DNA of 64,000 nt from Pseudemcibacter aquimaris (lineage in GTDB: Bacteria > Pseudomonadota > Alphaproteobacteria > Sphingomonadales > Emcibacteraceae): NCBI RefSeq assembly GCF_028869115.1, contig NZ_CP079800.1, positions 1,984,001-2,048,000 on the forward strand. Direction: 5' to 3'. Within the stretch, counting starts at the first letter, position 1; each line of letters starts with the position of its first letter. The notes under the pieces are model-generated. The model was given only the letters and a program-made list of their open reading frames with translations. It ran no database searches and was not told the origin of the DNA. The translations under genes and the position numbers were made by a program. Positions 1 through 3,144 of this stretch are shown one piece after another.

Positions 1-891
1 TACGATGAAACCAGTAATGGGAAAATTTATGAATATGAAGAGATTGCCAGCGAATATTATAAGAAATACTTCAAAATTTTAGACAAATCTAAAACGCCAA
101 AAGATGAAACATACTTTGATCATTATATAGAACTTATCAACACCGAAATGGCACTTCATGGGATATGGTACAAAAATAAATATCTAAACAATTTATTATC
201 CATGGCATCAAAAAGTAATATTCCAGTTTTGAAAAAAGCAGAAATTGAGGTCTTTGTAGCAAATCAACGTTATCTGAAAGACGACAAAGCAAAAGCACTT
301 AAAATTTTTATTTCAGCACTAAACAAACTTGAAACCATTGAAAACACGAATAAATTAACCCTTGCAAATGCCTATCTCGGTAAAGCGCTCATTCATTTCG
401 ACAATAAAAACTACAAGGATGCTGAGGTAGGTTTTCAATTAGCCCTCAAAAATTATGAAGAATTAGAAACAATAGATAAAAACATCCTCGCAAATTCCCA
501 TAAAAACTTAGCGAGATTATATGTAGAAACAGGTAAATATGATTTGGCTGCATCACACGGCGAACAGGTTACAAAATTTGCTAACAATCCAAAAGAAATG
601 TTTCTACCGATTGTAAGGAAAGAACCACTATATCCCTCGACCGCAAGGCGTCACGGTGCCGGCGGTTATGTTGTTATCAAATTGACGATTGATACCGAAG
701 GAAAGACAAAAAACATCACAGTGGTGGAATCATCTTCCTCAGTGTTTGAAGAAAATGCAATAAAAGCTGTCGAAGGATTTCGATATATCCCGCAGTCCGA
801 AAATGGCACGAGAATTGAAGTACCAAATGTAATGGCCGTATTGCAATTTGGAATAGCCAGTAGAAAATATATGTACATGAAAGCAATGTGA
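1..891 (+). CDS. TPR protein with TonB-like C-terminal domain (5' end outside window)
   Basis: The reading frame is open from base 1 with no stop, so the gene starts upstream of the window; the ATG at 148 is internal. The visible part is rich in helical TPR-like repeats (paired A/Y/L positions, e.g. LANAYLGKALIHF and LANSHKNLARLYVETGKYD). It ends in a TonB C-terminal-like fold: an EPLYPSTARRHG segment, then VIKLTIDTEGKTKN, then FEENAIKAVEGFRYIP. In TonB this domain contacts the TonB box of outer-membrane receptors. Here it sits behind TPRs rather than a TM anchor plus Pro-rich linker, and no exbB/exbD is nearby, so energy transduction is doubtful. It is the first of three similar adjacent genes; its stop is one base from the next start, implying co-transcription. 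Function unknown; a periplasmic scaffold role is inference. Confidence 0.8.
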   Translation, partial: YDETSNGKIYEYEEIASEYYKKYFKILDKSKTPKDETYFDHYIELINTEMALHGIWYKNKYLNNLLSMASKSNIPVLKKAEIEVFVANQRYLKDDKAKALKIFISALNKLETIENTNKLTLANAYLGKALIHFDNKNYKDAEVGFQLALKNYEELETIDKNILANSHKNLARLYVETGKYDLAASHGEQVTKFANNPKEMFLPIVRKEPLYPSTARRHGAGGYVVIKLTIDTEGKTKNITVVESSSSVFEENAIKAVEGFRYIPQSENGTRIEVPNVMAVLQFGIASRKYMYMKAM

Positions 892-892
892 T

Positions 893-2020
893 ATGATCAG
901 AATTTTATCACTACTTGTCATTTTTATTTCTCCCGTCTATGCCGAACAGGCAGCGGATATGACAGATTTACAAAAAATCGAAGCTGCTTTTTCGGAATAT
1001 TCACATCTTAGCCAGTCAACTAAAGATGTTGATGCCATTATAAAGGCTGCCCAAAAAGTTTATGATTTATCATTGCCATATTACGGAAAAAACAATCCCA
1101 ACACGGCAGCAAGTATTGTGAACCTCGCCACTATATATGCATATAAAAGCAAGGATGACACACACCCTGACCTACGATTAAAAGCATGGGAATTATACGA
1201 ACAATACCTAGAAATCATAGACAAAATAAAAGCGAAAAAAGACAAAGATTATATATATTTTTACCTAAATTATCTGGAATCACTCTCCCTTGAATCTAAC
1301 CAACAAAGAGCCACCCTTCACGCGAAAAATATTCATAACGCAAGCCAGAAACTGGATTATTCAGATGCAGAACATGGTGACATCCAGTTTTCAATTGCTA
1401 TGGCACTTTATAACAATCGCGATTTTAACGATGCTCATAATTATTTCAAACGGGCCAATAAGCATTACCTTAATGCACATGGGCCAGATCATTTCAAAGT
1501 AGGGAAAAGCTATTTCTGGATGGCAAAGCGTGAAATGACAAAACGCAGACAAAAATCAGCCGAAAGAAATTTACTCGCCGCACTTGATGTCTTTGACAAA
1601 AACCCTGAACAAGGGGCCTCATTAAAACAAAACACTCATGCTTTTCTTGTGGCCCTCTATGAATCAATGGGTAAATCAGATGCAGCAACTTTACATTGTC
1701 AAGCAATCGCCATCGAAAGACCAAAGGATTTCGATCAATTCATCACACCACTTTACCGAATTAATCCAAAATTCCCACCTATCGGCCCAAGACAAGCAAG
1801 CCGCTTACAAAAAGAGCCAATCGAAGTATTGCTTCAATTTGATGTCGATAAAAATGGCAGAACCAGTAACATCAAAGTCATTGATAGCGATAACGTCAAA
1901 TTTAACAGACCATCCATTCAAGCCGCCAGATCATATAGATACGCCCCAAGCGTCAAAGACGGTGAACTAATCGAAACAATTGGCGCAAAACTAAATTTCG
2001 TTTATGGAGTTTCACAGTAG
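893..2020 (+). CDS. Exported TPR protein with TonB-like C-terminal domain
   Basis: This 375-aa protein starts with a short signal peptide (MIRILSLLVIFISPVYAEQ, predicted cleavage after YAE or near it). About 250 residues of TPR-like helices follow. The C-terminal TonB-like domain is recognisable from FPPIGPRQASRLQKEP, LLQFDVDKNGRTSNIKV and SIQAARSYRYAP. The architecture matches the genes on both sides, so this is the middle member of a tandem triplet. The ATG follows the upstream stop by one base and its own stop abuts the next ATG, so translation is probably coupled. There is no transmembrane anchor after the signal peptide, so it should be soluble in the periplasm. Export and domain content are supported by sequence; a link to TonB-dependent uptake is only suggested by the fold. 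Confidence 0.85.
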   Translation: MIRILSLLVIFISPVYAEQAADMTDLQKIEAAFSEYSHLSQSTKDVDAIIKAAQKVYDLSLPYYGKNNPNTAASIVNLATIYAYKSKDDTHPDLRLKAWELYEQYLEIIDKIKAKKDKDYIYFYLNYLESLSLESNQQRATLHAKNIHNASQKLDYSDAEHGDIQFSIAMALYNNRDFNDAHNYFKRANKHYLNAHGPDHFKVGKSYFWMAKREMTKRRQKSAERNLLAALDVFDKNPEQGASLKQNTHAFLVALYESMGKSDAATLHCQAIAIERPKDFDQFITPLYRINPKFPPIGPRQASRLQKEPIEVLLQFDVDKNGRTSNIKVIDSDNVKFNRPSIQAARSYRYAPSVKDGELIETIGAKLNFVYGVSQ

Positions 2021-3144
2021 ATGATTAAAAAATCATATATCTTTCTTATATTCATAATATTTAATTTTTCTGTTTTTGCCGAAGAAAATGAAAAGCCAAT
2101 ATTTGTAAAACTGTATGAAGAAACGAATGAAGTATTTGAAAACCCTGAAGGCATTGAAGGCCTCCATGAAATGCACGTTAGAGTGCATGAGGCATCATCA
2201 AATATTAGAAAGAAATACGACAAAAGAAATCTTGAAACACTTCTTAAATATGCTCAGTTAACCTAGCAGATTTAAACGACATAAAAGGCAAAACTGATAA
2301 CAATAAAAACGAACGCAAGGCCTTCGATTTATATGAAGAATATTTCGAAACCCTGTACAAGCTATCTCCGCAAATAGAAGAACAATATTTATTCCAATAT
2401 TTATTGTTTATAAATGCTGGGTTTAATTCTCTCAAAATTAAAAACAACAGCATTTATGTAAACAACTTGCAAGAAATTATAAAACAAGTTTACGATGAAG
2501 AGAGAATTAGGTCAGAATTATATTATGTAATTAGTAGAAAGCTTTATGGGATATTAGCTAAAGATCAGGATAAAACTCCGTATACAATTTCTTGGGAGCT
2601 ATATGATAAACTATTTACTGAAGACAAACCTAATTTGGGCATAATGTTTATGTCGATGGCATTCATAAGCGAAAGAAGAAACAACAAAGCTGCTACTATC
2701 AAGTTTTTTAATTCCGCGATTGAAATTTTAGATAAAAACCTTAACACTAAAGATATAGAACTTCTTTTACTAGCCCACGAATCCCTCATAAATATTTATA
2801 GCAAAGATGGAAAAACGGATAAAGCAACACCACACCTCGTTGCATATGCTAAAAAAAGACCAGAAGGTTTTGGTGACCCTAAAAGAGCTTTATACGCTGA
2901 ATTCCCTATCCTCCCTTCAAATGTAAAAGGACGTGGAAAATCGCATCACGCGTCAGTGAGGTTTGATGTGGATAAAAATGGTTTTACAACAAATATTACG
3001 CCACTTACTACAATCAATATTGAACTTGCTGACGCACTTGCAGAGGCAATAAAAAAATCCCGATACGCCCCTGCAATTAAAGATGGTCAACCAGTTCCGA
3101 TGTATAGATTAAAAGAATCCATAACAATCTTCACAGAGCGTTAG
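2021..3144 (+). pseudogene. Third TPR/TonB-like paralogue, interrupted by a 1-nt frameshift
   Basis: The 5' part (2021-2266) encodes a signal peptide (MIKKSYIFLIFIIFNFSVFA) and early TPR helices, then hits a TAG at 2264. Shifting to the -1 frame at about base 2260 continues without a stop to 3144. The continuation reads NLADLNDIKGK, then ERKAFDLYEEYFETL, which matches the neighbour's LKAWELYEQYLEII. The C-terminus keeps the TonB-like features VRFDVDKNGFTTNI and AIKKSRYAPAIKDG. Restoring one base gives 374 aa, against 375 for the adjacent paralogue, which points to a single deletion in TTAAC (TTAAAC expected). No slippery heptamer is visible, so programmed frameshifting is unlikely. A sequencing or assembly error cannot be excluded; if so, this is an intact exported protein. 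It abuts the upstream stop (TAGATG). Confidence 0.75.

Follow-up and report, generated by a model that had tools for sequence, protein, structure and literature searches.

A tandem array of exported TPR proteins with TonB-type C-terminal domains, diversified as mosaics, in Pseudemcibacter aquimaris

To our knowledge, the TonB tail is regarded as functional only as part of a motor-driven protein tethered to the membrane, and a locus of Pseudemcibacter aquimaris in which such tails sit on exported TPR proteins raises the question of what they do there. We analysed a window of 64,000 nucleotides (G000:C1:1984001-2048000), the host genome (G000) being a single contig (C1) of 3.37 Mb. An earlier note had described a tandem triplet of genes at window positions 1-3144. 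Three adjacent genes on the same strand (g2, g3 and g4) are indeed present there; however, the array comprises four, the full-length first copy, g1 (G000:C1:1982670-1983764), lying just upstream of the window. The array is located between a MATE gene and thiG.

The gene g2 (window 1..891, plus strand; G000:C1:1983764-1984891) encodes an exported TPR and TonB_C protein of 375 aa and is cut by the window start, with its first 79 codons upstream; its TonB_C domain was found at 622..819 (+; PF03544, 60.1 bits, E 3.1e-15). The next gene, g3 (893..2020, +), encodes a protein of the same kind and length (375 aa), whose structure we modelled. Its signal peptide (MIRILSLLVIFISPVYA; 893..943, +), recognised from the sequence and a hydrophobicity scan and likely cut before EQ, is the start of the 'constant' 5' part discussed below, and its TonB_C domain lies at 1820..2005 (+; PF03544, 37 bits, E 4.7e-8). 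The fourth copy, g4 (2021..3144, +), begins with a signal peptide visible in the sequence (MIKKSYIFLIFIIFNFSVFA; 2021..2080, +), carries its TonB_C domain at 2914..3102 (+; PF03544, 29.5 bits, E 6.2e-6) and is broken by a frameshift. Three-frame translation placed the change of frame between KYAQ and NLADLNDIK, at 2240..2270 (+): the frame that opens at 2021 runs for 81 codons to a TAG at 2264-2266, and what follows, up to 3144, is read in another frame. Inspection of this junction by eye showed no classical -1 slippery heptamer, and a programmed frameshift was set aside on that ground; g4 is either a frameshifted pseudogene or the product of a sequencing error.

The g2 start overlaps the g1 stop by 1 nt, a single nucleotide separates the g2 stop (891) from the g3 start (893), and g4 starts (2021) directly after the g3 stop (2020). 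The adjacency described in the note was thus confirmed; g4, however, is not one open frame. The signal peptides ascribed to the two N-termini that are complete in the window, those of g3 and g4, are both visible. A sigma-70-like match (10/12 positions) stands about 30 nt before g1, and such matches are no commoner than in shuffled sequences.

In the profile search, PF03544 (TonB_C) scored above its curated cut-off in all four genes and TPR_12 in g1-g3, in agreement with the TonB_C-like C-terminal domains behind TPR helices that had been read from the sequence. The array holds 4 of the 11 TonB_C matches of the genome, and such a share in one cluster indicates that the clustering is not due to chance. 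The AF2 model of g3, for which the input alignment contained only proteins of the window and the fetched loci, reached a pLDDT of 88.6 and a pTM of 0.82, with TPR helices at residues 20-271 and a TonB-type domain at 299-371. The domain consists of strands 310-318 and 323-332, a helix 335-347 and a strand 362-371, which is the topology of a TonB tail, and this third strand either closes the protein or precedes a short C-terminal extension. The middle part is a TPR superhelix (pLDDT about 90), with no extended proline-rich periplasmic spacer. An isolated 99-residue tail modelled without an alignment was poor (pLDDT 46) and that model was left unused. Profile searches of the PDB matched the solved TonB2 structure (2k9k, E 9e-27), as well as E. 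coli TonB, and for the helices the TPRs of kinesin light chain; Foldseek with the whole model returned KLC and LGN TPRs. Profile, model and PDB matches therefore agree on the TonB-like fold that had been suspected.

Set against 22 TonBs from related genomes, the array proteins keep a common core (P..YP, G, V.F.V, G, E, F, A..A, K, Y.P and DG), the G, P and DG positions at 90% or more, while being much more variable than those TonBs. Several positions specific to TonBs are lost, among them the RAAE.G.EG turn and the K.K.P motif, which reads RYAP in the array proteins. Their TonB_C domain varies almost as much as the TPR part, so that no conserved docking surface stands out.

All 38 full-length copies showed a signal-like N-terminus and no later TM-like stretch in the hydrophobicity scan, and the profile search of the genome found no exbBD, TonB or receptor genes near the array, which supports the proposal of soluble periplasmic proteins without a TM anchor or ExbB/ExbD. 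A lipobox at the cleavage site was present in 0/38 copies, the single motif match sitting inside the hydrophobic core, and a lipoprotein identity was rejected for lack of the cysteine at that site. The array amplifies and recombines while the Ton machinery lies elsewhere in the genome: an ExbBD-TonB operon (exbB-exbD-tonB) at C1:404704-406673, with a separate TPR gene directly after tonB, a second tonB, and at least 25 TonB-dependent receptors (25-26 counted), the MotA/ExbB match nearest to the array being about 47 kb off, at C1:1937017. The search for exbBD or receptors beside homologous clusters, which the note had proposed, showed no such linkage across the order; a receptor gene stands near two single-copy gammaproteobacterial relatives (L087 and L091), too few to count.

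The C-terminal domain thus belongs to the same Pfam family as that of the TonB energy transducers, shares its topology and has a TonB2 structure as its best PDB match, but the array proteins differ from transducers in lacking the N-terminal TM helix, the motor motif and the spacer, and in being exported, soluble, headed by a TPR superhelix and encoded apart from exbBD. That they are genuine transducers coupling to ExbBD in another way, as the fold and the TPR helpers of TonB2-type systems might suggest, is extremely improbable, since the SHLS motif is missing together with the helix, the spacer and the linkage to exbBD, and the real TonBs of the same genomes do have the helix, so that the topology contradicts it. 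Without membrane helix, motor-binding motif or spacer, the array proteins cannot be energy transducers, and a true TonB identity was rejected on these grounds and on the neighbourhood. Since a soluble protein cannot transmit the force of the motor, the TonB tail must serve binding.

The MATE-thiG interval is the site of the array in this genus and a hotspot, with 0 to about 12 copies. There are 4 copies in G000, about 12 in G006, 1-2 in several genomes and none in G002, G004, G005 and G009, the intervals of G004 and G003 being incompletely assembled. The copies of G006 lie on two contigs, one of which reaches the MATE side and the other the thiG side. Broken copies are frequent among the array genes, and the array-free genomes of the genus still have receptors and TonB. 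Where the array is missing, the interval may instead contain sulfatases, a PGA_cap (CapA-like) gene, an alpha/beta hydrolase or a Fic protein, and in relatives accessory genes were seen in place of the array or beside it (L101-L106). Outside the genus, genomes of the Emcibacter and Kordiimonas types have 1-3 copies at other fixed places, and single-copy full-length relatives are present in Gammaproteobacteria. Within the genus the array copy number rises weakly with the number of receptors (rho 0.57, p 0.04, n 13, uncorrected for phylogeny); this weak correlation could stem from common ancestry or from the quality of the assemblies.

The most informative feature of the array is its mosaic diversification. 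Between G000 and G006 the neighbouring housekeeping proteins are 75-95% identical, whereas the best-matching array proteins reach 53%. The two array copies of G011 agree in 88% of the bases over the first 80 codons and in 42-46% after that point, while the duplicated fragments that flank them match their sources at 94-96% identity. Between these two copies lies a hybrid CapA'-thiG' fragment (L051:9690-10151), a scar of tandem duplication. A trio of copies in G006 agrees at ~71% identity in the leader, starting at about -72, and through the first ~370 nt, and diverges thereafter; past this stretch blastn aligned none of the corresponding parts for 2 of the 3 pairs. Among 19 copies of the genus, the nearest relative of residues 1-90 was found in the same genome for 11 (permutation p<0.001), as compared with 2/19 for the TPR middle and 0/19 for TonB_C. 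In AU tests, with clades named after the trees were seen, the C-part data rejected the G011 pair (p 6e-9) and the G006 trio (1e-65), and the N-part data rejected two C-part clades (p 0.005 and 0.010); g1 and g2 of G000 as sisters were rejected by the C-part (7e-37) and not by the N-part (p 0.19). Since the ML tree of the 5' part by itself is weakly resolved, we base the case for mosaicism on the AU tests and the G011 pair. The array genes are mosaics, in which the 5' part is common within arrays and the later TPRs and TonB_C form old lineages that run across species. Synonymous sites were saturated outside the common start (dN/dS of the G011 copies), and selection can therefore not be claimed.

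Beside the architecture, export signal, missing anchor, copy-number variation, hotspot location and mosaic structure, all of which are observed, we place a tentative reading drawn from the sequences, in which the proteins would be soluble adaptors or competitors of receptors. The third strand of TonB pairs with the TonB box of the receptor (PMC11658791). By the same beta-strand addition, the tail of each copy might pair with TonB-box-like peptides of TonB-dependent receptors, the TPR part would bind a second periplasmic partner, and each copy would act as adaptor or competitor for one receptor or receptor set. The array would diversify as copies are born and lost and as recombination replaces everything but the leader, the signal peptide and the first helices (roughly residues 1-90 to 120). 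Because the TPRs and the tail are both exchanged behind a constant export part, parallel specificities fit better than one common target, and together with the weak trend of copies and receptors this favours receptor adaptors or competitors over the main rival, a scaffold at peptidoglycan. Against the favoured reading speak the missing linkage of the arrays and of their homologues in the order to receptors or exbBD, the four genomes of the genus that have receptors and TonB but no array, the variability of the tail and the reversed domain order of some gammaproteobacterial proteins. A bolder form, which we consider rather unlikely, takes the hotspot array as a periplasmic repertoire of soluble TonB-tail adaptors, with specificity exchanged by recombination behind the constant export part, gating or shielding changing sets of TonB-dependent receptors, either for nutrients or against phages and bacteriocins that use them.

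The scaffold explanation makes the TonB-type domain a module of the cell wall or envelope that holds the TPR proteins at peptidoglycan, where the TPRs assemble complexes unrelated to receptors. We judge it somewhat unlikely, although TPRs are generic scaffolds, the array has no linkage to receptors or exbBD, and its neighbours in the hotspot include a capsule-type PGA_cap gene and sulfatases. A common target in the cell wall should keep the tail conserved, yet its variation nearly equals that of the TPR part and follows old lineages common to several species; we also know of no conserved peptidoglycan-binding residues. A link of TonB tail dimers to peptidoglycan has been proposed, according to a citation in PMC9022066, and speaks for this explanation.

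There are two further explanations, both of which we hold to be quite improbable. In one, the soluble tails would be a decoy or immunity repertoire that occupies receptors and limits the TonB-dependent entry of phages and bacteriocins, the exchange of specificity tracking the attackers. In E. coli, siderophore uptake is inhibited when TonB fragments are present in the periplasm, and the range of 0 to about 12 copies in one genus, the broken copies, the unrelated accessory genes of the hotspot, the constant start with its exchanged specificity part and the low identity of the best cross-species counterpart (53%, against 75-95% for housekeeping neighbours) would all suit such a role; however, the sequences give no direct sign of selection, synonymous sites being saturated, and metabolic or surface genes share the hotspot. 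PADLOC gave no substantial match to a defence family, only a weak one on a single copy, and membership in a defence family was rejected. In the other, the TonB-type domain would be an inherited structural cap with no binding role, the TPRs doing the work in a family under neutral birth and death. Its relaxed conservation relative to real TonBs, the frequent broken copies and the dispensability of the array within the genus agree with this, but no full copy has lost the domain, its core positions are retained (G, P and DG at 90% or more), and other exported proteins carry it by itself or in the opposite domain order, as would suit a module that does work.

Several known systems resemble the array in part. 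A precedent for the adaptor or competitor reading is the separate TPR protein TtpD2, which is essential in a TonB2 system (PMC6957404). It resembles the array proteins in its size of ~400 aa, its tie to a Ton system and its low conservation between species, but it lies in the tonB2 operon of Vibrio and has no reported TonB tail (PMC6957404), whereas the array stands between MATE and thiG, and G000 has a separate TPR gene after tonB, apart from the array. The soluble TPR-TonB_C proteins of Alteromonadales and other Gammaproteobacteria have the same signal peptide, TPR_12 and C-terminal TonB_C, yet they are single genes, with no tandem arrays or mosaics in the neighbourhoods read. A TonB_C-like match outside classical TonB also occurs in BlaR1/M56-like proteins (L097 and L099), which differ in being membrane-bound and adjoining a BlaI-like gene. 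Polymorphic families with a constant start and a variable end are known, for example the SitA toxins of myxobacteria; the array is like them in its constant export part, exchanged specificity part and tandem copies and unlike them in having no toxin or immunity domains, its variable part being TPR and TonB_C.

Neither the TonB_C domain nor its combination with TPRs is a new kind of sequence. A tandem array of exported proteins that recombines, in contrast, seems to be undescribed, as the open-access literature searched yielded no account of one. A widespread exported family of untethered TonB tails, amplified and recombined in one genus, would point to the regulation or shielding of receptors by soluble competitors, and the mosaic structure gives a direct handle on this, as the exchanged part should carry the specificity.

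TonB_C domains were also seen in other settings. In exported gammaproteobacterial proteins (L095:6378-7463, L096:5412-6578 and L100:6427-7581) the domain stands at the N-terminal end (residues about 46-127) and the region after it has no Pfam match, a reversed domain order from which TonB_C may be a general periplasmic module. G000 encodes three exported proteins of 121-124 aa that consist of a TonB_C domain alone (L005:1492-1857, L007:1492-1860 and L007:2216-2590), two of these stand-alone soluble tails being adjacent and L007:2216-2590 being a gene also contained in L006. A fifth, diverged exported TPR-like and TonB_C protein is encoded elsewhere in the genome (L009:1477-2490, minus strand). 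Near an array in G028 lies a gene for an exported protein of 1011 aa with a ricin-type lectin and WD40 repeats (L055:15043-18078). Among the receptors of G000, five barrels fall within 13 kb (C1:1664526-1677260), and two barrels 4 kb apart (C1:459808-461322 and 463842-465356), with identical profile scores and frames of 960 aa, are probably a very recent tandem duplication.
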